Below, one piece after another: positions 5,161-24,204 of a stretch of DNA of 26,904 nt (the stretch's first letter is position 1; every line of letters begins with the position of its first letter). Under the pieces are notes generated by a model. That model saw nothing but the letters and a program-made list of their open reading frames with translations, was not told the DNA's origin and made no database searches. The position numbers and the translations under genes are program-made. Source of the stretch: a virus; the IMG/VR virus record IMGVR_UViG_3300026484_000467, positions 1 to 26,904 of that record, one strand, 5' to 3'.

Positions 5161-7027
5161 GTCAATGGATAAAATGATAAACAAAGATGAAATAAAAAAA
5201 ATTTTTAATAGTTATGCATTAAAACACGGTTATTCAGAACCTCCTCCAACAATTATTGAATTTATTTGTGATGATTATTATCTTGGAAAAACATTTAACA
5301 ACGGTAAATCAATTTATAAGTATTGGTTAGAGACTCTTGTGAAAATGTTTCCAACGCCATTTCCAGAGTTGAATAAAATCAGAAATAATGCATATACAGA
5401 TAATTACATTATTTTAAATACATCCGCAATTTCTACAGGAAAAACAACTGTTTCAAACATTATTTTTCTTTATGATTTAGCTCATGTTTTATGTTTAGAA
5501 AATCCACAAGCATTTTATAAATTATCTCATAATACAAAAATAGATTTTATAGTTTCAAATTCAACAAAAGAAAACTCAGAAACAATAAACTTTGCACTTA
5601 TTTTAGGAATGATAAGAAATAGTCCTTTTTTTCTAAGTAAATTAAATAACAAAACAAAAACTAGTATGTTTGAGAAAAATATTGATCTTCTTCCAATTTC
5701 TCCATATAGACGTCAATTAACTGGTAGAGCAGTTTTTAGTATTTTAATGGACGAATTGAATAGACATCCTCAACCAAAACAAGCATTAGCATATGTAACA
5801 GAAGCAATTAATAGGCTTCCGTCAAGGTTTCTTTCTGAGAACAAAGGTAAAAAATATGTTCCGGGACATATTTTAATTATTTCATCAGCTGATACAGATA
5901 CTTCATTAATTGAACAAATTAAATTCTCATTGACTAGTGAAGAAAATGAATCAACAATAAAAAATCCTTTACTTTTGATAAATGCAAAACAATTTGAAGT
6001 TCTAAAAGAAAAAATAAATTTTTCAGACAAATATTTCTACGTATTTACAGGAACTTATAATTTAGAACCTAAAATTTTGGAAGGTGATGAATTAGAATAT
6101 TACAAAAATAAATATCCTGATAAAATAGAAAAAGTTCCTTATGATTATTATCTAAGTTTTAAACAAAATTTGCGCCAAGCAATAGGTGATATTTTAGGTA
6201 TTCCTGTTATAAGTTCTTCAAGTTTTATAAGTGATAAATCTGTTATAACACAAGCATTTAAACATAAAAATCCTACGACAAGTATCATTGAATATGATAA
6301 CAATGTTCCATTGATAAATTATTTCAATATTGAAATTTTAAAAGAATTATTAAATAATTATAAAGGTAAACAGTTTGTTCTGGGATTAGACTTAGCATAT
6401 AGTAATGATAAACTAGGTATTGCTTTAGGATGTATCAAAAAAATTGAAAACAATCAAAAATATGTTGATGTAATTTTTGCTACTGCATTAACACCTGCCT
6501 CAGGGCAAAAAATCAAATTTTCTAGAATTAGAAAATTCATATTAGATTTAAGAGAAAAATTTGGAATACATATAGCAAAAATTTATGCCGATACGTTTCA
6601 ATCTTATGATTTTATTACAATAATGCAAGATTTAGGGTTTGATGCAAAACAACATTCTGTCGACAGAAAAAAAGATTCATATTATGCTTTAAAAAATGCT
6701 CTTTATGAAAACTTAATTGATTTACCTGAAAATAGTTTGTTAGAGAAAGAATTAATATTTTTAAAAGAAAATGAGAAAAAAATTGATCACCCTGATACTT
6801 TTCCTGATGGAACTCCTGGTAGTAAAGATATAGCAGATGCTGTTTGTCAAGTTTATTCAGCTATTCTTGATTTAGAATACAAAGAATTTTATGAGAAAAA
6901 TTATCTCAAAGAATTGGAAAAACAATTAGATATAGAAATTGTAAAAACTGAAATGAAAGTTGAAGAAAATGATTTTTATAATAATCTATTAAAAGGAAAA
7001 ATAGAAAATATTTATGATTACATATAA
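5159..7027 (+). CDS. Terminase large subunit (T4 gp17-like)
   Basis: A 622-residue packaging motor. The N-terminal ATPase has a Walker A-type loop 'SAISTGKTT' (Lys95) and a Walker B 'FSILMDEL' (Asp199-Glu200). The C-terminal RNase H-like nuclease begins at 'LGLDLAYSNDKLGIALG' (Asp411), followed by 'KIYADTF' and an acidic D-A-V region near 'SKDIADAVCQV'. These are the hallmarks of large terminases, which pump DNA into the prohead and cut the concatemer. Length is in the T4 gp17 range. The next gene is the portal, its docking partner. In T4, sheath and tube genes lie between 17 and 20; here there are only 11 bases. No small terminase (gp16) was recognised upstream. A second in-frame ATG lies two codons downstream; I use 5159 because of the AAAGG at 5148-5152. 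Confidence 0.9.
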   Translation: MSMDKMINKDEIKKIFNSYALKHGYSEPPPTIIEFICDDYYLGKTFNNGKSIYKYWLETLVKMFPTPFPELNKIRNNAYTDNYIILNTSAISTGKTTVSNIIFLYDLAHVLCLENPQAFYKLSHNTKIDFIVSNSTKENSETINFALILGMIRNSPFFLSKLNNKTKTSMFEKNIDLLPISPYRRQLTGRAVFSILMDELNRHPQPKQALAYVTEAINRLPSRFLSENKGKKYVPGHILIISSADTDTSLIEQIKFSLTSEENESTIKNPLLLINAKQFEVLKEKINFSDKYFYVFTGTYNLEPKILEGDELEYYKNKYPDKIEKVPYDYYLSFKQNLRQAIGDILGIPVISSSSFISDKSVITQAFKHKNPTTSIIEYDNNVPLINYFNIEILKELLNNYKGKQFVLGLDLAYSNDKLGIALGCIKKIENNQKYVDVIFATALTPASGQKIKFSRIRKFILDLREKFGIHIAKIYADTFQSYDFITIMQDLGFDAKQHSVDRKKDSYYALKNALYENLIDLPENSLLEKELIFLKENEKKIDHPDTFPDGTPGSKDIADAVCQVYSAILDLEYKEFYEKNYLKELEKQLDIEIVKTEMKVEENDFYNNLLKGKIENIYDYI

Positions 7028-7038
7028 AGGATATATAA

Positions 7039-8502
7039 ATGTTTTTTGATGGATTTTTTTCAAAATTGTTTAGAAAAAATATAGAAAAATCATTACAAAA
7101 TACGAGTTTTAATCATGAATTACCACAAATTAATCCACTTCAGCAAATAGATATTTATAAAGGTGATACCACTGTAAATAAATTTTTAATTGCTAATTTT
7201 TTTAACATAACAAGAAATAAAGAAGAATTAGTAAAAGAAATTGATGAAATAAAAGATTTTTATTTATCGCAATTAATTGTTAACAGAATTATTGAGGATG
7301 CATTTACACCTACTATTGATAATGATTTTTTTAGGCCAACAGTCATTATAAATTCTCAACAAGATAATACTTTAACTGAATTATTAGAAGAATTTACTCA
7401 TGAATTCAATCTTAAAAAGATTGTTTTAGATATTTCAGCTGATATATTAAATTATGGTGAAACATTTTTGAGACTAGATGTAAAAAGTGGCGAAGGTATT
7501 ATAAATATTCATGATGATGTTGATATAACAAAAATAATTCCAGTTTTCAGAGATAGTAATATTTCTTATTTTTTAAAATACGACAAAAAAGAGAAGAAAT
7601 TAAAAAGTGTTCAAAATTCAAATTATGCTTATTTTCATTTACCATCTAACAGAATTAAAGTTAAAATAAATGGTTTAGATGACAAAATTTTATATGTAAG
7701 AATGGGTCAATCAATTTTGTATCCTATTTTTGGATTACTCAAAGAATTAAAATTTTTAGAAGAACTTTATCCTATTGCATTAATCAAACAACTTCAAAAA
7801 ACTAAAATTGTTGGTGTATCTATTCCAGCAGGAACAAAACCCGCTGAAGCACTTGAAATAGCGAGAGTTTATCAAAAAATGATAGATAAAACAATGATAA
7901 ATGATGAAAATTATTCTAGTCCTGAAGAATTATTACGTCATATTCAATCAAAATTAGGTTCTGTCAAAGTTATTCCTGTATGGAATGATAAAGGTTCATT
8001 GGAATCACAAGATATTAATAATGAAAATGATTTTGAAAATTTACAGCAAAAAATTGAAGATTTAAGAATATTAGCATTAAAAACATTAGGCATGCCAACT
8101 AGTCTTGTTACTCAAGAATCTGATTTATTGAAATCAGATATTATAAAATCGTATAACATGTATAACAAAAAATTAAAAATGATACAGGATGCTATTTCTT
8201 TTGGATTGAAGCAAATATATACAATTCATCTTCAAAATCTTGGATTTACTGATATTTATTTAGAAAATATTGAAATTGTTTGGAATAATACATTAGATTA
8301 TGAAGCTCTTCAAAAAATTGAATTAGTAGATATTTTAGTTGCAAGTTTTGAAAATATTAATAATTTTATTAACGATTTACATGATAAAGAAAATATCAAA
8401 GTTAATGAAAAAGAATTTACTAAATATATGAATACTCAATTTAAGAATATAATGGGATTCAATTTATTTGAATTTGATGAAAAGGAAGAAGATGAAGTTT
8501 AA
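7039..8502 (+). CDS. Portal vertex protein (T4 gp20-like)
   Basis: A 487-residue protein immediately downstream of terminase. Recognisable portal features are an N-terminal region with 'KDFYLSQLIVNRIIEDAF', a central strand-rich part, the segment 'FGLLKELKFLEELYPIALIKQL' that resembles the clip/stem helices of T4-type portals, and a C-terminal 'LKTLGMPTSLVTQESDLL' followed by a crown-type helix. Twelve copies form the ring through which DNA enters and to which the tail joins. Gene order terminase-portal-core-protease supports the call. It overlaps the next gene by 11 nt. Confidence 0.82.
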   Translation: MFFDGFFSKLFRKNIEKSLQNTSFNHELPQINPLQQIDIYKGDTTVNKFLIANFFNITRNKEELVKEIDEIKDFYLSQLIVNRIIEDAFTPTIDNDFFRPTVIINSQQDNTLTELLEEFTHEFNLKKIVLDISADILNYGETFLRLDVKSGEGIINIHDDVDITKIIPVFRDSNISYFLKYDKKEKKLKSVQNSNYAYFHLPSNRIKVKINGLDDKILYVRMGQSILYPIFGLLKELKFLEELYPIALIKQLQKTKIVGVSIPAGTKPAEALEIARVYQKMIDKTMINDENYSSPEELLRHIQSKLGSVKVIPVWNDKGSLESQDINNENDFENLQQKIEDLRILALKTLGMPTSLVTQESDLLKSDIIKSYNMYNKKLKMIQDAISFGLKQIYTIHLQNLGFTDIYLENIEIVWNNTLDYEALQKIELVDILVASFENINNFINDLHDKENIKVNEKEFTKYMNTQFKNIMGFNLFEFDEKEEDEV

Positions 8503-9211
8503 AGAAGAAATTGATAGATTATATTATGAAGCTCTTGAATTAAATGATTCAATTATAAGAAATAAATTACAGTTAATTGCAAAAAATATAAAAGATAGAA
8601 AAAAATCTCTTGCAGCAAAAAATTTTTGGAGAAGAAATGCATATAAAATGAAAAAAGCCATTCAAAAGTGGCATCAATCAACACAAGGAAAAAGGTTTCA
8701 CAGAAACCTTGGGAATTTTTTGGCAACACATCTAACAAAAAGTGATTTAGGATTATTAAAAAAAGAAGAATATCCAAATAAAGAAATAGAAATTTCGTTA
8801 GATGATATAGCTTCAATTCTTTTAGGACTAAATAATATTAAAACTCATTTAATTATAGAAATGCAATATTTTGAAAAAGATAGTGAAGCTCTTGAAGAAT
8901 TTTTAGAGATTTTCTTTAAGTTCCTTGAAGATTCATATGAAATAGAAATTGAATTATTAAAAGCATATATTAATGGAACAATAAATGAAGAAATATTATT
9001 TAGAATAATTGATATTTTTATTTATTTTATAGATGAAAATCAATTTCTTTATGAAGTTAGACAAATAAATGGTTTATCTAATGATAAAAATGTTGACAAA
9101 ACAGTTGTAGAAGAATTAAATGAATTAAAAAACATAAACACAAAACAAGACAAAATATTTTTTATTATTAATAAATATAATAAAAATATAAATAAAAACA
9201 AAGGACAATAA
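8492..9211 (+). CDS. Probable prohead core/assembly protein between portal and protease
   Basis: I start this 239-residue protein at the ATG at 8492, preceded by AAGGA at 8482-8486. Upstream in-frame ATG (8477) and TTG (8468) codons would enlarge the overlap with the portal gene and have poorer ribosome-binding contexts. The N-terminal part has a strongly basic helix, 'FWRRNAYKMKKAIQKWHQST', of the kind seen in small core proteins of T4-like phages; the rest is acidic and helical with a lysine/asparagine-rich tail. Its slot (after gp20, before the protease) is where T4 has core proteins gp67 and gp68. No specific match is recognised, so the role is inferred from position and charge. It overlaps the protease gene by one base (TAATG). 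Confidence 0.5.
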   Translation: MKFKEEIDRLYYEALELNDSIIRNKLQLIAKNIKDRKKSLAAKNFWRRNAYKMKKAIQKWHQSTQGKRFHRNLGNFLATHLTKSDLGLLKKEEYPNKEIEISLDDIASILLGLNNIKTHLIIEMQYFEKDSEALEEFLEIFFKFLEDSYEIEIELLKAYINGTINEEILFRIIDIFIYFIDENQFLYEVRQINGLSNDKNVDKTVVEELNELKNINTKQDKIFFIINKYNKNINKNKGQ

Positions 9212-11203: not shown

Positions 11204-11713
11204 ATGAAATTTTTAAAAAAGTCTGAATTAAAATCGTTTAGAGAAAAAAAATTAAAAGAAAACAATTTTAAATGTGAGATTTGTGGGAGAACAATTGATT
11301 TTTCAGAAGCTGTTGTAGATCATATTCATAGTTCTCACAAATCTCTTTATCCTGAAACATACAAGTTAATAAGAGGAGTGATATGCTCTGATTGTAACAT
11401 TTTATTAGGAAAAATAGAAAATCAATTTTTACGTTCATCTAAAAAATACAAAGAAGAAATTGAATTAGAAAATGTTTTAAAAAAAATTTCTATATATATA
11501 AAAAAATATAAAAACAAAAACAATTTTAAAGATCAAGTTGTGCATCCGTCTGAATGGAAACCTAAAAAAATAAAAAAATCAAGTTTTAATAAATTTAAAA
11601 AAATAATAAAAGAAAAATTTAACAAAAATGTAGAATATCCAAAAAGTGGCAAATTGACTAAGCAATTAGAAAAATTAGCTAAAAAAATAAATTTTGAATT
11701 TGAATATTATTAA
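11204..11713 (+). CDS. Recombination endonuclease VII (T4 gp49-like)
   Basis: A 169-residue structure-specific nuclease. It has the full endonuclease VII zinc site and active site: C24-x2-C27 and C61-x2-C64, with D39-H40-x-H42 and Asn65 between and after them (the segment 'RGVICSDCNILLGKIEN' is diagnostic). T4 endonuclease VII uses the same arrangement to cut Holliday junctions and branched DNA before packaging. The C-terminal half is lysine-rich, probably for DNA binding and dimer contact, with weaker similarity. Its place between the head genes and gp55 recalls the 55-49 neighbourhood of T4. The start follows AAATAAAGTCAAAA, a weak ribosome site. Confidence 0.9.
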   Translation: MKFLKKSELKSFREKKLKENNFKCEICGRTIDFSEAVVDHIHSSHKSLYPETYKLIRGVICSDCNILLGKIENQFLRSSKKYKEEIELENVLKKISIYIKKYKNKNNFKDQVVHPSEWKPKKIKKSSFNKFKKIIKEKFNKNVEYPKSGKLTKQLEKLAKKINFEFEYY

Positions 11714-11720
11714 TATTAAA

Positions 11721-11740
11721 AAAATACAACAATGTATTTT
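11721..11740 (+). terminator. AT-rich hairpin after endonuclease VII, possible weak terminator
   Basis: AAAATACA (11721-11728) and TGTATTTT (11733-11740) form an 8-bp stem with an ACAA loop, eight bases after the endonuclease VII stop. There is no separate run of Ts beyond the stem, so termination would be weak. A second AT-only stem lies at 11768-11795. Both separate the late genes from the promoter at 11806. Confidence 0.3.
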
Positions 11741-11805
11741 AGTCAGATGAGTGAATTAAATTAAATGATAATTTTTATTAAAGGAAAAAAATTATTGATT
11801 ATAAT

Positions 11806-11834
11806 TTTACTTTTTAGCAAAAACATGTTATAAT
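11806..11834 (+). promoter_or_regulatory. Promoter P1 (host sigma70-type) upstream of the gp55 operon
   Basis: A T-rich element TTTACT (11806-11811, within TTTTACTTTTT), exactly 17 nt, then TATAAT (11829-11834) preceded by TG. It is one of five sites in the window with the same design. Initiation about seven bases downstream (near 11841) would give a leader of about 184 nt before gp55. Confidence 0.75.
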
Positions 11835-11840
11835 TATATT

Positions 11841-12000
11841 GGTTTTGATAATTTATTTATCAGGGCCTCTCTGAGAGGCTTTTACAAATTTGAAATATAT
11901 TTTTATTTCAAATTATAATTTTTTCACCAGAGAGGCCCGAATAAGTAAATTGATGTATTTACAAATTTTATAATTAATAATTTTATAATAAACAATTTGT
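11841..12000 (+). promoter_or_regulatory. Structured 5' leader of the gp55 operon
   Basis: This occupies most of the 311-base gap between endonuclease VII and gp55. Elements in order: a small GATAA/TTATC hairpin (11847-11861); GGGCCTCTCTG (11863-11873) perfectly complementary to CAGAGAGGCCC (11928-11938); inside that long-range stem a 10-bp hairpin AATTTGAAAT/ATTTCAAATT (11887-11896/11905-11914); and ACAAATT/AATTTGT (11961-11967/11994-12000). The left arm can instead fold locally as GCCTCT-CTG-AGAGGC (11865-11879) followed directly by TTTT, like an intrinsic terminator. The two folds exclude each other, as in attenuators. The GC-rich arms stand out sharply from the AT-rich surroundings. Confidence 0.7.
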
Positions 12001-12024
12001 AATCACAATGAAAAGGAAATTAAA

Positions 12025-12477
12025 ATGGAATATTTTAATGATAAAGAAATAACAAAATTACTTATTAAAGAAAGTAAAGAAAGGCTTGAAGGAAAACGAA
12101 AAAATCCATCTGACGAAGTAGTGAAAGCTTTTTTAGATGTATTAGAACATACATTAACATCAAGAAAATATTCAGGTTATTCACCTGAATGGAAAGATGA
12201 ATTTCGAGGTTTAGCTTATGAGAAATTTGTAAAGCATTGGTATAAGTTTAATCCAAAAATGACTCAAAAAAATTATTATCAAAAAAATGGTAAAAAAATT
12301 TTAAAAGATGAAAAAGAATGGGTTGGAGCACATGGATTTTTTACAACAATAGTAGTTTCATCTATACATGATATAATAAGAAAATTTAAAAAAGAAAGAC
12401 AAAGCAGAGAAGAAATGGCTGTTTCATATAATCAATTATGGGAACAGGAATGGTTTAAAAATCTTAAAAGGGGTTAA
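12025..12477 (+). CDS. Late-transcription sigma factor (T4 gp55-like)
   Basis: A 150-residue protein resembling T4 gp55, the minimal sigma that directs host RNA polymerase to late promoters. Matching features are 'YSGYSPEWKDE' (49-59; T4 gp55 has F-S-G-Y-T-x-x-W-K-x-E), then 'AYEKFVKHWYKFNP' and 'HGFFTTIVVSSIHDIIRKFKKER', which parallel the sigma region-2 helices of gp55. The C-terminus 'SYNQLWEQEWFKNL' may serve as the short clamp-binding tail, but I cannot confirm this. It is the first gene after promoter P1 and its structured leader. Being transcribed from a host-type promoter fits its role as the switch to late expression. RBS AAAAGGAAATTAAA. It heads an operon of five genes. Confidence 0.85.
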   Translation: MEYFNDKEITKLLIKESKERLEGKRKNPSDEVVKAFLDVLEHTLTSRKYSGYSPEWKDEFRGLAYEKFVKHWYKFNPKMTQKNYYQKNGKKILKDEKEWVGAHGFFTTIVVSSIHDIIRKFKKERQSREEMAVSYNQLWEQEWFKNLKRG

Positions 12478-12478
12478 A

Positions 12479-13672
12479 ATGGGTGGAAATTTAGGAGTTA
12501 AAGGATTTAAGGCGCAAAAAATACCTGTAAAAGAATTAGGTCTTAAAAAATTTCAAAGGGATTTCAAAAAATTATTTTATAAATTAGATGAATTATTTTT
12601 TAAACAAAATGGAGAATATATTTGGAAAACTAAAAGAATAATAGATGATGGATATGTTTTTGACGGATCAGCAAGTCTTTTAATGAAAAATGATGTTTCT
12701 TCGAATATTTTAGAATTGAAACCTTTTATTGGTGATATAGATATTATGGTTCCTAAAAATTTAAAAGAAAAACTTTGGGAATTTCTTGAAAATATTGAAA
12801 ATAAACAGATAGAAAATTTTACATACATAGGAAATAATAAACCTAGTATTTCTAGTATCGGTGAACAAATAAATGCTTTATTTGAATATTATTACAAAAA
12901 AGACAAATGTATTTATGTTCAAGTTGATTTCAGATTTGTTGAGTTTGAAGAAAAAAACATAATAAATAAAAAAGAATATATTCCAACAATGTGGAGTAAA
13001 TTTAGTCATTGTGCGTCTATTGAAGATTTAAAAATAGGTGTAAAAGCTGTATTTCATAAAATTTTATTAAGAAGTTTAGCGTATGCATCATCATACACAG
13101 ATAATGCTATTTTTGTAACACCTTCAGCAAATTGTGAAAATTGGGAAAAGAAAATTTCAAAATCTAAAAAACGCGATAATCATTTATTAAAATTTAGTGT
13201 TTCAAGAGGTATTAGAATTGCTTATGAGCCTTTAATTTGCGATGGAAAACATGTTCAAAAAGATGGTAAATTTGTTTATAGAAAATTAAAAACAGATGAA
13301 AGCATATATTACACTGATATAGATAAAATATTTGAAATGATTTTTGGAATTAAACCAAATGATGAAGATATAAATAATTTTTGGTCATTTATGGGACTTA
13401 TAAAATTAATGAAAAAATATTTTGATGAAGAAAAAAATAAGTTAGCATTTTACAGATTTTTAGAGCTTCTTTGGGATAATGATGAAAAAAATATTGCACA
13501 AGAATTAGAAAGAGATAATCCTGAACTTGATTATCAAATAAAAATTAATTCAGTAAATTATTTATTAAAAGAATTTTCTTTTTTGAAAAATGAATATGAA
13601 AAATGGTTATCTAAGATAGATTCTTATTATAAAAAATACGGTTTAAGAAAAACAAATAAAATGTTTAAATAA
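12479..13672 (+). CDS. Pol-beta-type nucleotidyltransferase, unknown substrate
   Basis: A 397-residue protein starting two bases after gp55. It shows the nucleotidyltransferase core: G63-S64 in 'VFDGSASLLM', D86-I-D88 in 'PFIGDIDIMVP', and a third acidic residue Asp150 in 'VQVDFRFVEF'. Further conserved-looking segments are 'PTMWSKFSHCASIEDLKIGV' and 'FHKILLRSL'. I recall similar uncharacterised proteins in marine T4-like phages (GS...GDID...QVDF...FSH...FHK). All three metal-binding acids are present, so activity is likely: transfer of a nucleotide to a protein, RNA or small molecule. The C-terminal half is helical and unassigned. Its neighbours, a nuclease-like protein and a ligase fusion, suggest a shared pathway. 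Confidence 0.7.
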   Translation: MGGNLGVKGFKAQKIPVKELGLKKFQRDFKKLFYKLDELFFKQNGEYIWKTKRIIDDGYVFDGSASLLMKNDVSSNILELKPFIGDIDIMVPKNLKEKLWEFLENIENKQIENFTYIGNNKPSISSIGEQINALFEYYYKKDKCIYVQVDFRFVEFEEKNIINKKEYIPTMWSKFSHCASIEDLKIGVKAVFHKILLRSLAYASSYTDNAIFVTPSANCENWEKKISKSKKRDNHLLKFSVSRGIRIAYEPLICDGKHVQKDGKFVYRKLKTDESIYYTDIDKIFEMIFGIKPNDEDINNFWSFMGLIKLMKKYFDEEKNKLAFYRFLELLWDNDEKNIAQELERDNPELDYQIKINSVNYLLKEFSFLKNEYEKWLSKIDSYYKKYGLRKTNKMFK

Positions 13673-13703
13673 TTTAATAAATAAATAAAAATAAGGATTT
13701 TTA

Positions 13704-14642
13704 ATGAGCTATATAAGAGAAGCACTTAAAAAGATAGAAGAATCAAATGTTGATGAGATTTTTTTATCTCCAGATCAAGTAAAATTAGCAGAGTCTGATT
13801 TGTTGGAAGATAAACAGAAATTAAGAAAAATAGTAGCTAAAAAATTAAAAATTTCTGTCAATGATCTCCCTCCAATGCTTACAGAGAAAAAACAAAATTT
13901 AAAACAATTTGTAAATTATTATAACAAAAACATTTATCCTAAATATGAAGATGTTATTATCAAGTTAATGAATGTAATTGGAAAAGAAATAGGACATGGA
14001 GAAATTTTATTAGCCATTCTTCATCAAAAAATAACTATTTCTCGTAATAATAATCCATTTGATATAATATTTGGTGATGAATATGCAGAACTAAAAGAAG
14101 TATTTAAAAGTGGAAATAAATTAAAAAATTTTAGGTTTGGAACATTTATGAAAGAAGCTCTTAATAGTGCTTATGAAGATATTGTAAAATATATAAAAAC
14201 AATGAGTTTATTAGATCCAAAAACATTTCCACCTGATCAAATAAAAAAGGCAATAAATAAAGGTGAGTTGACAAAGTGGCTTACATTAGCAAAGAGTAAT
14301 GAAAAAAGAATTGCAATAGATAAAAAATTTTTAAATGTAGAAATAGATAACTTTTTAAATATATATTATGATAGTGAAAAATTGGGTAATTTACAAGATA
14401 TTTCAACAATTAATAACCTAAAGAGATATTTTGAAAAAATGGATGTTTTAACATATTCAAAAATACTTAAAAAAATAAATGATATTGTTAGAAAAGAAAA
14501 GATGCCATACATAATGATTGTTGGACAAAGATCACCAAAAAGTGAAATTGGTAAATTGTATTATTTTGAAAATTTAGCACCAGTAGAAATAGATGCTATT
14601 ACTCAAGGAAAAATTAAGATTTGTAAAATTATCGATAAGTAA
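13704..14642 (+). CDS. Putative PD-(D/E)XK nuclease-fold protein
   Basis: A 312-residue protein. A helix with 'IGHGEILLAILH' (Glu100) is followed by 'NPFDIIFGDEYAELKEVF', giving Asp120 and Glu129-x-Lys131. This E...D...ExK order, with the G-x-G-E helix first, is the layout of PD-(D/E)XK nucleases, the fold of many restriction enzymes and phage nucleases. The downstream 'LKNFRFGTFMKEAL' could be the following strand and helix. No other domain is recognisable; the N-terminal 90 residues are charged and helical. It is 61 nt upstream of no other promoter that I can see and follows the nucleotidyltransferase by 31 nt, so it is probably in the gp55 operon. The assignment is from motif spacing only. 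Confidence 0.5.
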   Translation: MSYIREALKKIEESNVDEIFLSPDQVKLAESDLLEDKQKLRKIVAKKLKISVNDLPPMLTEKKQNLKQFVNYYNKNIYPKYEDVIIKLMNVIGKEIGHGEILLAILHQKITISRNNNPFDIIFGDEYAELKEVFKSGNKLKNFRFGTFMKEALNSAYEDIVKYIKTMSLLDPKTFPPDQIKKAINKGELTKWLTLAKSNEKRIAIDKKFLNVEIDNFLNIYYDSEKLGNLQDISTINNLKRYFEKMDVLTYSKILKKINDIVRKEKMPYIMIVGQRSPKSEIGKLYYFENLAPVEIDAITQGKIKICKIIDK

Positions 14643-14650
14643 GGAAAATT

Positions 14651-16192
14651 ATGAAAAATTATATCGATGTGTCTGTAAAATCAGCGAAAAATGTTTTAAA
14701 AGATAAAAGAAAACTTTTAACTTTTCTTGAAACATATCAAATTGTTGAAGAAAAGCTTGATGGAGTAAAAGTTACTTTGATATTAAAAGAAGATGCTAGT
14801 TCTGATAAATCATTTACTGAAAATTGGATAGTTGCATATAAAGGAAATATTATTTATCCTGAAGAATTTGGTTATAATTCAGATGAAGAAATTAAGAAAT
14901 CTATAGGAAGTTCTCAGTTTAAATTTATATTTGATATTTTGAAAAATATCAATGTAGATATTCTTCCTAAAGGCTATCAATTTTTTTGCGAATATCTTAT
15001 TAAAAAACCAACATTAATGAGTCAATACAGTAATCTTTATAATCTTATTTTACTTTCTTATGGAAAAACTTCTTATAAAATAAAAAATGGAATGTTAATA
15101 ACTTCTAATATAGAATTTAATTTTGATTTTGATGAACGTGCTGAATTAGCAAAGAAAATGGGAATTCAAGTTCCACCTATTGTTTTTAAAGGTATTCTTT
15201 ATCCAACAAAAGAATTATTGAAAGGTATAAAATACGAGGAACTTTTTAAGGTTGTTGAAAATAATTTAGAAAAATTGAAAAACTCTGAAAATGACATAGA
15301 ACTTTATTGGAAGGTTTTAAATAATACATTTCTTTCTGTAGAATCAGTATTTGGTGGAAAACCTGAAGGTTTTATATTTTGGAACAGTCAATTTCCTCCT
15401 TTAAAAATTCAACAAGAATATCAATTATCAAAAGAAGAAAGAGAAAAAATCAAACAAAAATACAGAGCAGATCCATTTTTAGAATCACTTTATTGGGCTG
15501 AAATAAAAAAATTAGTAAAAGAACTTATTAAAGAATTAAACGTATCAAACAAAGATGCAGTTGACTTTAGAAGAGTTTTATTAAAGGCATCAAATTTAAT
15601 AAAGAAAATTCCTAAAGATTATATTAAACATTCAAAAAAATCATGGGAAATGATAAAAGATGATATTTTTTTGACATTAAAATTAGAACTTATAAAAATG
15701 TTTGCAGATAAATATGCATTAGTAATAGGTAAATTTAGAATTTTTACAAATGCTCATAAAAAAATAATTGATAAAGCTCTTCAAAAATATAATGGTGTTG
15801 TTATAGCAATAACTTCTAATAAAGATACATTAAAAACTCTTCAACTAAGAAGAAAAGTAATTGAAGAATGTTATAAAAAAGAAATTGAAAATGGTATTAT
15901 AAAAATAGTTGAAACTAGAAGTGCAAATATTGTGACAATTATTGATAAAGCTCTTCCAATAATTATTGGTGGGATAGTTACAGGATCTGATAGAGTTGTT
16001 GCATATCAAGAACAAATTGAAAAAATAGGAAGTGATATACATATTATTGAAATTCCAAGAGATGATAATTCTATTTCTGCAACAAAAATAATAGAAAATA
16101 TTTATGATGAAAAATATTTTAAGAAAAATACACCAAAATGTGTTTGGAAATTTTATGATGAATATTTGAAAGTATATGGAGGAAATGAATGA
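14651..16192 (+). CDS. Nucleic-acid ligase fused to a HIGH-type nucleotidylyltransferase
   Basis: A 513-residue, two-domain protein. The N-terminal domain (about 1-260) has nucleotidyltransferase-ligase motifs: motif I K35-L-D-G38 with the AMP-accepting lysine, a motif III-like F-F-C-E114, motif IV P-E239-G-F and motif V L-K252-I-Q. This is an RNA/DNA ligase core, closest in style to RNA ligases. A helical linker leads to a C-terminal Rossmann domain (about 353-513) with 'GKFRIFTNAHKKII' (T366-N-A-H369, a variant of (H/T)xGH) and 'ISATKI' (475-480, compare ISSTxI). These are the two signatures of NMN/pantetheine/cytidylyl-type transferases. So both halves handle nucleotidyl transfer. The start codon follows AAGGAAAATT. 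Substrates cannot be read from the sequence. Confidence 0.75.
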   Translation: MKNYIDVSVKSAKNVLKDKRKLLTFLETYQIVEEKLDGVKVTLILKEDASSDKSFTENWIVAYKGNIIYPEEFGYNSDEEIKKSIGSSQFKFIFDILKNINVDILPKGYQFFCEYLIKKPTLMSQYSNLYNLILLSYGKTSYKIKNGMLITSNIEFNFDFDERAELAKKMGIQVPPIVFKGILYPTKELLKGIKYEELFKVVENNLEKLKNSENDIELYWKVLNNTFLSVESVFGGKPEGFIFWNSQFPPLKIQQEYQLSKEEREKIKQKYRADPFLESLYWAEIKKLVKELIKELNVSNKDAVDFRRVLLKASNLIKKIPKDYIKHSKKSWEMIKDDIFLTLKLELIKMFADKYALVIGKFRIFTNAHKKIIDKALQKYNGVVIAITSNKDTLKTLQLRRKVIEECYKKEIENGIIKIVETRSANIVTIIDKALPIIIGGIVTGSDRVVAYQEQIEKIGSDIHIIEIPRDDNSISATKIIENIYDEKYFKKNTPKCVWKFYDEYLKVYGGNE

Positions 16193-16428
16193 AATTTGAA
16201 AAAGAACCTGGCAGTATTAGAGAAGTTAGTTTTAAAACTTTTAAAATTGGAAAAAGATTTTTAAGAGGAATTTTAGAAATCATATTTTTTGTTTTGTATG
16301 TTATTGGTTTTATTATTCAATTACCATTTTATATTTTGGTTGTTAAAGAATTTGAAAGAATATTTTCTGATTTTAAAGAAATTTCAAGAAAAACATTGAT
16401 AATAATAAAAGAATATTTTACTTTTTGA
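16189..16428 (+). CDS. Small membrane protein ending the gp55 operon
   Basis: A 79-residue protein overlapping the ligase fusion by 4 nt (ATGA), hence probably translationally coupled to it. Residues about 27-51 are strongly hydrophobic ('GILEIIFFVLYVIGFIIQLP' onward) and should form one long or two short membrane helices, flanked by basic residues on the N-terminal side. The C-terminus is a charged helix. No family recognised. Coupling to a cytoplasmic ligase/nucleotidylyltransferase raises the possibility that it tethers that enzyme to the membrane, but it may be unrelated. The promoter for the next block begins inside its last codons (16417). Confidence 0.55.
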   Translation: MKFEKEPGSIREVSFKTFKIGKRFLRGILEIIFFVLYVIGFIIQLPFYILVVKEFERIFSDFKEISRKTLIIIKEYFTF

Positions 16429-23429: not shown

Positions 23430-23822
23430 ATGTTTGTATATCAAGATGATAAAATTATTGATTTAGATACTGGAAAAGCTATTGAAGAAATTGTTGAAGA
23501 AACACGTGGTAAAAAATATTCAAATTTTACAAAAAGCGAAAAATTGGCTAAAATATTTGTTGTTATTTTTTATGAAGATGAGTCGTTAGAGTTGTTTGGA
23601 AAATATTTAGAAGTTTTGATAAATTTTTTTGGTATAAAAGATAAACCAGAAAAAATAGATGACTGTGTGAATATTATTTTGAATATACAAAATTCATCAG
23701 AAGATTTAATTGATTTTATATTTTTTGATATAATTACATATGAAGATGAAGTAATTTTTAGAAATATGTTTAAAAATGTGATTAAAAGTGTATTTGAAGA
23801 ATTCAAAGAAAATCAAGAATAA
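23430..23822 (+). CDS. Hypothetical protein, first of a tandem paralogous pair
   Basis: A 130-residue acidic protein with a strong ribosome site (AAGGAGTTAAA). It starts MFVYQDDKIIDLDTGKAIEE, a small strand-turn-strand with D-x-D-T-G-K, followed by helices ('SEKLAKIFVVIFYEDESLEL', 'NIILNIQNSSEDLIDFIFFD'). The next gene encodes a protein alike over its whole length. No known domain. It is expressed from P5 through a structured leader, so its level may be controlled at the RNA level. It lies between recombination genes and the clamp loader, which suggests, but does not show, a replication or regulatory role. Confidence 0.6.
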   Translation: MFVYQDDKIIDLDTGKAIEEIVEETRGKKYSNFTKSEKLAKIFVVIFYEDESLELFGKYLEVLINFFGIKDKPEKIDDCVNIILNIQNSSEDLIDFIFFDIITYEDEVIFRNMFKNVIKSVFEEFKENQE

Positions 23823-23832
23823 AGGAGTTAAA

Positions 23833-24204
23833 ATGTTTGTATATCAAGATAACAAAATCATTGATATAGATACAGGAAAAACTGTTATTGACATTCTCAA
23901 AGAAATAACTAAAAAATCTTTTAGAGAACTTACGGAAAAAGAGAAATTGGCAAGAATATTTTTTATTATTTTTTATGAGGATGAGTCTTTAAAATTATTT
24001 GAAAAGTATTTAGGAATTTTGATAAATTTTTATGATATAAAAGATAAACCCGAAAAAATTTCTGAAGCTGCAAATATAATTTTAAGTATTCAAAATTCAT
24101 CAAAAGATTTAATTGACTTTGCATTTTTTGATACAATTATATATGAAGACAAAGAAATTTTAAGTAAATTAACAGAAGAACAAAAAAGAAAAGTATTCAA
24201 ATAA
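23833..24204 (+). CDS. Hypothetical protein, second of the tandem paralogous pair
   Basis: A 123-residue protein. The frame is open further upstream (TTG at 23788), but the ATG at 23833 is the right start: it has AAAGGAG at 23821-23827 and the same bases around the start as the first copy, including identical 'ATGTTTGTATATCAAGAT'. By eye about half of the residues match the upstream protein, with conserved 'FYEDESL', 'IKDKPEKI', 'NIIL.IQNSS.DLIDF' and 'YED'. The C-terminus differs ('LTEEQKRKVFK'). Near-identical ribosome-binding regions with diverged coding sequence indicate an old tandem duplication whose start context has been kept. Function unknown. Confidence 0.62.
   Translation: MFVYQDNKIIDIDTGKTVIDILKEITKKSFRELTEKEKLARIFFIIFYEDESLKLFEKYLGILINFYDIKDKPEKISEAANIILSIQNSSKDLIDFAFFDTIIYEDKEILSKLTEEQKRKVFK

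Follow-up and report, generated by a model that had tools for sequence, protein, structure and literature searches.

Our results suggest that a Polbeta-like nucleotidyltransferase (NTase), a ligase-like enzyme and a HIGH-superfamily nucleotidylyltransferase (CT) constitute one functional module of T4-like phages, acting in nucleic-acid end-processing and sealing and delivered from the head in some lineages, a reading to which we give roughly even chances. The window, a stretch of 26,904 nucleotides of viral DNA (IMG/VR record IMGVR_UViG_3300026484_000467), encodes all three. Across distant phages, the three predicted core domains are found as neighbours or fused to one another, with their catalytic motifs kept, and a further neighbour, possibly a nuclease, differs from phage to phage. 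The function that suits this set best is predicted to be the end-processing or repair of nucleic acids, with RNA slightly favoured as the substrate.

That NTase, ligase and CT belong together is strongly supported by comparison of loci. Among 26 NTase loci surveyed in IMG/VR, including the window's own contig (L096), 19 hold both a ligase and a CT and 12 encode NTase, ligase and CT as a single polypeptide, near-identical loci (L111/L112 and L113/L114/L118) being counted separately in both figures. Three further loci are from Campylobacter phages with the ligase-CT elsewhere; no ligase was found at four (L103, L104, L105 and L117), three of these on short contigs. The NTase adjoins separate genes for a KxDG ligase-like protein and a HIGH-type CT in Xanthomonas X1 and Menderavirus, and a ligase-CT fusion in the window and in Vibrio phages; in X1, four adjacent genes encode NTase, a nuclease-like protein, the KxDG protein and CT, and Mendera is arranged likewise. 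NTase and ligase-CT share a record in 13 Campylobacter and 6 Vibrio records, lie on two records of the genome of Campylobacter phage IBB_35 and are about 65 kb apart in CP220, while the Mendera ligase occurs in 16 Stenotrophomonas records, the same number as the NTase. In independent profile checks, a fusion-ligase profile finds the ligases of X1, Mendera, L119 and L120 (E = 9e-22, 3e-7, 5e-36 and 1e-37), and a window-type CT profile finds the CTs of X1, Mendera and L120 (E = 3e-16, 7e-10 and 4e-26). Related fusions are present in PHROGs (phrog_455, DUF6267 ligase-like plus CT; phrog_12709, nuclease-like plus ligase). In L062, a HAD protein between ligase and CT matches phrog_415, 'polynucleotide kinase' (E = 5e-8), and similar ORFs occur in L081 and L090. 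The initial annotation had proposed that the products of the window's genes work together; homologues of NTase, ligase and CT do co-occur, by adjacency in distant phages and by fusion, so that the proposal is supported for these three, less firmly for a 312-amino-acid protein, and not for a membrane protein.

In the window, five ORFs on the plus strand encode a gp55-like late sigma factor (12025-12477; phrog_234, E = 1e-9), the NTase (12479-13672), the 312-amino-acid protein (13704-14642), a 513-amino-acid ligase-CT fusion (14651-16192) and a 79-amino-acid membrane protein (16189-16428). The distances between them are 1, 31, 8 and -4 bases, which bears out the close succession first described. 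A sister contig (L007) keeps the first four genes and carries an additional ORF (5287-5826) separating gp55 from NTase, and in S-CREM2 the late sigma gene gp153 directly precedes the CT gene gp154. The promoter placed before the run by the initial annotation exists as a sequence, TTTACT-17-TATAAT (11806-11834, plus strand, 5' of gp55), and a similar one is seen by eye 5' of gp55 in L007, but such matches are no commoner than chance (45 versus 42.3 in shuffles). A T4-type late promoter (TATAAATA) is absent before the run, the nearest match lying at 13369 inside the NTase gene. The window gave no Rfam match at gathering scores, and none of four window proteins matched a PADLOC anti-phage defence family at E ≤ 0.1. 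In the membrane protein a single stretch is hydrophobic (maximum Kyte-Doolittle 2.45), and tblastn of L007 found no counterpart; the protein was rejected as a member and probably lies outside the set.

Polbeta-like NTases are recognised by a GS followed by a DxD and, on a later strand, by a third acidic residue. The window NTase (397 amino acids) presents G63-S64, D86-x-D88 and D150, and an alignment of 17 sequences, window included, that reaches down to 23% identity to the first row shows no variation at GS, GDxD or the third D. The GS/DID/D motif noted earlier is thus genuine, and on motif grounds we assign the protein to this superfamily. The motifs of L110 are G75 S76, D100, D102 and D156; in its AF2 model, D100/D102 stand at the start of a predicted strand (101-106) and D156 lies within another (151-160). 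The window NTase matches phrog_19290, of unknown function (E = 1.3e-59), and has relatives in 22 phage records by tblastn. It matched no Pfam family at E ≤ 1 and no NCBIfam model at E ≤ 0.1, nor RlaP, and a PDB profile search with the NTase alignment gave no informative match. PA5oct gp253 has NTase-like motifs, but is not linked to the NTase by profile (E = 3.3; hhalign 8%), so that its annotation as 'structural protein, ESI-MS/MS' was dropped as virion evidence. Its KIDG neighbour has no profile link either, and a scan with the PA5oct protein gave seven stretches, none confirmed.

The ligase-like domain of the fusion (14651-15715, border approximate) carries a KLDG motif I, YK64, E114, E239-G240 and K252. 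Covalent nucleotidyltransferases (DNA and RNA ligases, capping enzymes) combine a KxDG motif I with a later conserved Glu, an EG and a Lys. K35xDG (K35, D37, G38), E114, E239-G240 and K252 do not vary among seven sequences, the window and six others 36-79% identical to it, and the X1/fusion-type family shows the same pattern. The KLDG ligase motif of the initial annotation is therefore upheld, and the domain has the motif signature of this superfamily. No ligase was retrieved from the PDB by profile searches with either ligase alignment. The window-type, X1/fusion-type and DUF6267 ligases could not be linked by hhalign (1-6%), which does not support a single common ligase family, and agree only in motif order. 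The remainder of the fusion (15716-16192, border approximate) matches CTP_transf_like (PF01467; 25.0 bits, cut-off 21.0) and contains GKFRIFTNAH, whose TNAH is a T/HxGH-type motif (TNGH in L007), and ISATKI. By this score and motif it is predicted to be a HIGH-superfamily nucleotidylyltransferase. The usual ISSTxxR motif closes with an Arg, which is absent from the window CT.

The role of the 312-amino-acid protein is less clear, and its working with NTase, ligase and CT has weaker support than their working together. The initial annotation proposed a nuclease fold: the E...D...ExK residues (E100, D120, E129, K131) are present and kept in L007 (75% identical, the two being one lineage), but no family in Pfam, PHROGs, NCBIfam or PADLOC names the protein, and an AF2 model from two input sequences has a mean pLDDT of 42.1, which does not confirm the fold. 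Significant relatives lie within the window clade only. The same residues align in a protein near the Vibrio ligase-CT, with no significant similarity by blastp (E = 0.37) or hhalign (10%). Elsewhere, other families of similar guessed function adjoin the set, none linked by sequence to the window protein; the nuclease-like neighbours fall into four sequence groups (window; Vibrio; marine/X1/PA5oct; Mendera/L120/L068) instead of one family. S-CREM2 gp156 was rejected as a marine nuclease on its sequence. The N-terminus of the 312-amino-acid protein, MSYIREALKKIEES, resembles a tag common to other small proteins of this phage and is a candidate tag only; the MI[K/R]EI pattern was composed after viewing example sequences and its counts are descriptive, not blind.

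A link to the virion, absent from the initial annotation, is suggested by N-termini. Among 29 distinct NTases (distinct in 40 residues, with some close relatives such as those of three Campylobacter phages), 13 start MGGN and 16 have a GGN immediately preceded by [L/I]xE, the site of the T4 prohead protease; the motif precedes GGN in all 16 NTases with an N-terminal extension. PA5oct gp253 was left out, as were fragments in L001 and L102 (7983-8702) and the L054 match described below, which have no intact N-terminus or are not NTases. L104 (MGGN...ISE-GGN) and L120 (MIMGGN...LQE-GGN) carry a further GGN at or close to the N-terminus, and the inner GGN was counted. In the window, the NTase starts MGGN and the ligase-CT starts MKNYIDVS, neither with a capsid targeting sequence (CTS) ending in L/I-x-E; hence, in this lineage both may be made inside the cell.

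A related set of 80 marine loci (L016-L095, up to 20 kb each) is tied to the NTase set by CT only, as the NTase was found in none of the 80 (one match on the other strand of L054, E = 0.0075, was disregarded); marine and fusion CTs are linked by hhalign (98.9%). CTS-like N-termini occur in 28 of 36 marine CTs, 19 of 24 DUF6267 ligases and 5 of 458 other ORFs; with a looser pattern the counts are 20/24 for ligase, 23/36 for CT, 9/56 for nuclease-like proteins and 44/458 for other ORFs. This pattern was likewise composed after viewing example sequences, so that the counts are descriptive rather than blind, and the background ORFs include non-genes. CTs, called NMNAT-like, have been reported from cyanophage virions (PMC9602691, PMC10665884), and a virion protein table lists the S-CREM2 CT gp154 and its neighbour gp156 (PMC10665884), although the authors allow for carry-over in CsCl preparations (PMC10665884, PMC9602691). 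By eye, gp156 is NTase-like. No virion protein list was found in the accessible part of PMC6950013.

How might these enzymes act? We infer that they would work in sequence on nucleic-acid ends: an end would be created by a nuclease or by host damage, the NTase would put back missing nucleotides, the KxDG enzyme would adenylylate and then seal, and the CT domain would make or regenerate a nucleotide cofactor or activate the end. As the N-terminal extension of many NTase relatives ends in the prohead-protease motif, extended NTases may travel inside the head and leave it with the DNA, available ahead of phage gene expression. Most likely, they would help to reverse the cuts that host defence nucleases make in tRNA or other RNA. 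In a more specific version, to which we give well under an even chance, a head-loaded add-and-seal pathway would repair host-defence cuts in RNA (or DNA) before phage expression; a free GGN N-terminus, from Met removal or the prohead protease, would be needed, so that capsid maturation activates the NTase, and the HIGH domain would regenerate the ligase cofactor, giving a self-sufficient kit.

Almost as plausible as that version, and likewise doubtful, is repair of DNA ends or breaks, in which the enzymes would mend or protect the incoming phage genome (headful ends, nicks, light damage) in the manner of non-homologous end joining or base excision. Nucleotide adding and sealing are equally parts of end joining, and head targeting would put the enzymes beside DNA; African swine fever virus repairs with polymerase X, a ligase and an AP endonuclease. 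The ligase comparisons lean towards RNA without being decisive. The nearest Pfam ligase model to the window fusion is RNA_ligase (PF09414), at 22.1 bits, below its 27.0 cut-off. For the L110 triple fusion, modelled with AF2 (pLDDT 81.0), Foldseek ranks an archaeal RNA ligase first among the ligases (prob 1.00, E 6e-3); its list also contains a yeast tRNA-ligase domain, a ligase of a Rhizobium phage and, weakly, human LIG1 and the ASFV ligase. Only two of 1,343 Foldseek matches reach E ≤ 0.001, both CT-type enzymes, and the folds of NTase and ligase were barely tested by the L110 search because matches to the CT domain took up the VIA-align list. Firehammervirus CP220 has a separate gene annotated as a possible DNA ligase, which also argues, not decisively, against DNA repair.

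A cofactor-directed counter-defence is less probable again: the CT would be an NMN adenylyltransferase restoring NAD+ depleted by host defence, with ligase and NTase performing nucleotide or cofactor chemistry. The virion CTs of cyanophages are called NMNAT-like (PMC9602691, PMC10665884), residues ~713-915 of the L110 model match the NadM fold (Z 12.2), and in some Stenotrophomonas records the ligase gene is followed by one named nicotinamide-nucleotide adenylyltransferase. Phosphopantetheine adenylyltransferase, however, matches as well or better, in structure (Z 13.7) and in the PDB search with the ligase-CT profile (E = 2.8e-5 versus 0.018 for NMN adenylyltransferase). NCBIfam equivalog models for both enzymes score far below cut-off (24.3 versus 198 bits and lower for NMNAT on the fusion), and FAD synthetase is a weak best match for the fusion. 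For the NMN/cytidylyl transferase suggested initially, PF01467, TNAH and ISATKI are present, and these scores do not single out NMN adenylyltransferase; the CT may nonetheless work like one. Every NadM-bearing phage is stated to carry NadV too (PMC9503650), and the constant company of ligase and Polbeta-like NTase would go unexplained. Internal head or core proteins with a relic enzymatic look, or a fortuitous grouping within a late-gene cluster, would fit the CTS-like starts, the structural genes nearby and possible contamination behind some virion reports, but are very improbable given catalytic residues invariant over deep divergence and repeated fusion with the same partners.

To our knowledge, most described phage nucleic-acid repair relies on enzymes synthesised after infection. 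If virions of several lineages bring in an NTase, a ligase and a HIGH-type enzyme, repair would begin at time zero, and phrog_19290, 27149, 455 and 12709 and DUF6267, now of unknown function or called 'cytidyltransferase', would acquire a role open to testing. With the single-polypeptide fusions, three activities could be tested on one protein, and the GGN N-terminus would be a clean genetic handle on activation of an enzyme by capsid maturation.

Among the papers listed by our searches, none describes, by title and abstract, an NTase, ligase and CT set, and no literature was found on DUF6267 or on Firehammervirus with RNA ligase. Among known systems, phage RNA repair employs Rnl1/Rnl2 or RtcB together with a kinase, a phosphatase and the Polbeta NTase RlaP and is predicted to repair RNA that host defence has cleaved (PMC7824862). 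Such systems, like the window set, bring a KxDG-type ligase and a Polbeta NTase together. Unlike them, the set described here has, in the window, an NTase with no Pfam match at E ≤ 1, includes a HIGH-type CT domain, can be a single protein and, in relatives, has a prohead-protease motif before the NTase. DUF6267 (PF19782, phrog_455) resembles the window fusion in that a KxDG ligase-like domain adjoins or is fused to a CT in marine phages, but it has no assigned function and no detectable sequence relation to the window ligase. The cyanophage virion 'cytidylyltransferase' or NMNAT-like proteins have a CT domain of the same superfamily as the fusion CT; the accessible text of these reports treats them alone, as NAD enzymes, and does not discuss ligase-like or NTase partners (PMC9602691, PMC10665884). 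The T4 internal head proteins IPI, IPII, IPIII and Alt have capsid targeting sequences that gp21 removes by cleaving after L/I-x-E (PMC9026906), the same cleavage rule as in the extended NTases. The window NTase and ligase differ from these proteins in having no tag, and in the extended relatives the cargo would, unlike that of T4, consist of nucleotidyl-transfer enzymes.

The run of five genes proposed in the initial annotation was borne out, with all five found as described. Its first gene encodes a gp55-type late sigma factor (phrog_234, E=1e-9). The 397-aa Polbeta-like nucleotidyltransferase (NTase; 12479..13672, plus strand) belongs to phrog_19290 (E=1.3e-59) and has no family in Pfam or NCBIfam, and the 513-aa fusion of a ligase with a HIGH-superfamily nucleotidylyltransferase domain (CT, PF01467; ligase-CT, 14651..16192, plus strand) belongs to phrog_27149 (E=1e-85); neither PHROG has an assigned function. 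Against Pfam, the ligase-CT matched CTP_transf_like above the cut-off and RNA_ligase below it. The nuclease-like candidate between these genes, a 312-aa protein (13704..14642, plus strand), gave no above-background match in Pfam or PHROGs. The sister contig L007, the window's closest relative, keeps the NTase, 312-aa protein and ligase-CT at 72-78% identity and has no counterpart of the 79-aa membrane protein. Upstream of the run lies an endonuclease VII homologue (11204-11713; phrog_423, E=2e-23). The leader 5' of gp55 contains a strong predicted hairpin (11851-11950; -40.2 kcal/mol for 11851-11960) for which Rfam at gathering scores gave no match; L007 has a hairpin at the matching position too (-28.9), with different letters. 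Two adjacent window genes (23430-23822 and 23788-24204) start alike (MFVYQD.KIID.DTGK) and are probably a tandem duplication.

A search of IMG/VR with the NTase alignment returned 26 loci, 19 of which hold both a ligase and a CT. In 12 of these (L106-L116 and L118, some being identical copies) a single protein of 987-1,439 aa carries the NTase, then a ligase of the type seen in Xanthomonas phage X1, then the CT. In five others the NTase lies near a window-type ligase-CT (L011, L097, L101, L102 and L096, the last being the contig of the window itself), and two (L119 and L120) encode NTase, ligase and CT as separate genes within ~4 and ~8 kb. L098-L100 are Campylobacter phages; a ligase-CT lies elsewhere in the record of L098, and tblastn found one elsewhere in CP21 and CP220. 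No ligase was found in L103, L104, L105 or L117 in the 26-locus survey, or in a follow-up check of L103, L104 and L117; L103, L105 and L117 are contigs of 15.1, 6.5 and 24.0 kb, and L104, a contig of 128.8 kb, has a PF01467 match. PHROGs holds two further fusions, of a DUF6267 ligase-like domain (a KxDG domain of marine phages) with a CT (phrog_455) and of a nuclease-like domain with a ligase (phrog_12709). As this company is conserved at such depth, there is strong evidence for a joint function of NTase, ligase and CT.

Several loci have further features. Both the NTase and the ligase-CT genes of L102 are in pieces (6361-8702 and 11569-13221, two pieces each on one contig), and additional ORFs nearby resemble GIY-YIG homing endonucleases by eye; the breakage may be intron insertion or decay. 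Tandem NTase copies of one family precede the ligase-CT in L097 (6994-7998 and 8001-9194) and lie at the contig end in L105 (4770-5771 and 5829-6461). A second, different Polbeta-like NTase is visible by eye near the fusion genes of L107 (13110), L110 (11932) and L113 (12046); the motifs of such second NTases, read by eye in fusion-gene loci and in gp156, near the CT gene of phage S-CREM2, are GSNA.YSYT.HSDLDL or GGN...SDIDL. Marine loci L062 (12793-16314), L081 (13832-16990) and L090 (12815-16744) encode proteins of 1,052-1,309 aa in which an N-terminal CT domain (GRFQPFHKGH) is followed by a metallopeptidase-like HELVHHK motif.

A tblastn survey of 50,697 phage records found the ligase-CT in 21 and the NTase in 22, with both in 19 (13 Campylobacter and 6 Vibrio). 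They are split over two records of one genome in Campylobacter phage IBB_35, and the NTase that is left over belongs to X1. The two genes lie within ~4 kb of each other in the Vibrio phages, while Campylobacter phage CP220 has both ~65 kb apart. In X1, four consecutive genes encode first the NTase, then a nuclease-like and a KxDG protein, and finally a stand-alone CT; Menderavirus has four genes in the same order. The Mendera ligase is present in 16 Stenotrophomonas records and the NTase likewise in 16; the CT was verified in Mendera itself, the other records being judged by annotation names at the ligase match. The earlier proposal that the enzymes form one set stands for NTase, ligase and CT, which are linked more widely and tightly than could be seen at first reading; membership of the nuclease and the membrane protein was not secured. 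Phage PA5oct has clustered KIDG, nuclease-like and NTase-like proteins (gp253, gp255 and gp256; L014 5660-8969) that look like the NTase-ligase set, and its NTase-like protein, gp253, is marked as detected by mass spectrometry. Because profiles link neither the KIDG nor the NTase-like protein to the ligase and NTase families of this set, we do not count PA5oct as a carrier.

The NTase is one family across the set by HMM and tblastn. The window-type CT profile matches X1 (E=3e-16), Mendera (7e-10) and L120 (4e-26) and, weakly, L119 (E=0.025); hhalign gave 93.9% for X1-type against fusion CTs, 98.9% for marine against fusion and 15% for window against fusion directly. The fusion ligase profile matches the X1, Mendera, L119 and L120 ligases and did not find the window ligase, and hhalign gave no link among the window, X1/fusion and DUF6267 ligase types. 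KxDG is present in all ligase types, and E, EG and K follow in equal order in two aligned families. The nuclease-like neighbours form at least four groups, none with a significant link to the window 312-aa protein, for which AF2 gave no usable model. Slots may have been refilled by different proteins of like function, or the "nuclease" label may be mistaken.

AF2 modelled the L110 triple fusion well (mean pLDDT 81.0); how its domains are placed was uncertain (pTM 0.43). Residues ~713-915 of this model matched phosphopantetheine adenylyltransferase at Z 13.7 (2.8 A over 151 residues) and NadM/NMNAT at Z ~12. Foldseek with the whole model returned 1343 matches at E<=10, of which two, both CT-type enzymes, were at E<=0.001; several ligases are among the best 50 of the 1343: the RNA ligase 5d1o from an archaeon (E 6e-3, prob 1.00, TM 0.30 of target), one from a Rhizobium phage, the domain of a yeast tRNA ligase, and DNA ligases. 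Most likely, the set is a predicted end-processing pathway in which the NTase would add nucleotides and the ligase would adenylylate and seal. A cutting or trimming step, the least supported part, may also belong. In marine L062 the ligase and the CT flank a HAD protein that matches phrog_415, 'polynucleotide kinase' (E=5e-8), and L081 and L090 have ORFs resembling it; such a protein would fit the stripping of end phosphates. The CT may either make a cofactor, by chemistry like that for NAD+, CoA or FAD, or activate an end. RNA rather than DNA is favoured as substrate, on weak evidence: RNA_ligase is the nearest Pfam ligase model, the top ligase among the Foldseek matches listed is an RNA ligase, and CP220 has a separate possible DNA ligase.

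Beyond the earlier claim, predicted N-terminal features link the set to the virion. Of the 29 distinct N-termini counted for the NTase, 13 are MGGN (that of X1 by its annotated start), and 16 have an extension with [L/I]xE immediately N-terminal to GGN; the MSGN start of PA5oct was left out of this count, having no profile link. L/I-x-E is the cleavage motif of T4 gp21, which cuts off capsid targeting sequences (CTS) of 10-19 residues (PMC9026906). The MGGN starts and [L/I]xE-GGN extensions would lead to one shared mature N-terminus. A start of the [L/I]xE type is also present on the ligase-CT of L101. Marine loci L016-L095 carry a related set of nuclease-like protein, DUF6267 ligase and CT, and the NTase of the window family was not found in the up to 20 kb covered of each. 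A strict CTS-like pattern, drawn up post hoc, occurs there in 19 of 24 DUF6267 ligases, 28 of 36 CTs and 6 of 56 nuclease-like proteins; for the remaining ORFs, counted from 150 aa upwards, the figure is 5 of 458. The CT of S-CREM2 (gp154) and gp156 are both listed in the virion protein table of PMC10665884; by eye, gp156 (L123 6013-6726) has GGN...SDIDL and resembles a Polbeta NTase of another family. NMNAT-like virion proteins are reported for S-SCSM1 and S-CBWM1 in PMC9602691, and the authors of both studies concede possible carry-over (PMC10665884, PMC9602691).

In the window phage, the NTase (MGGN) and ligase-CT (MKNYIDVS) starts lack a CTS. The N-terminus of the 312-aa protein is MSYIREALKKIEES. 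Starts of the MI[K/R]EI[I/L] type, a post hoc pattern, are found in 6 of 38 listed window genes (starting at 13704, 16476, 17717, 18187, 18520 and 22221) and 7 of 31 plus-strand ORFs of L007; elsewhere they number 6 among 1,586 plus-strand ORFs of the marine loci and 0 among 28 window minus-strand ORFs. This start may be a candidate capsid-targeting tag of the window phage group. Virion delivery and GGN maturation, both predicted, stand a real chance of making the set something new in phage nucleic-acid repair.
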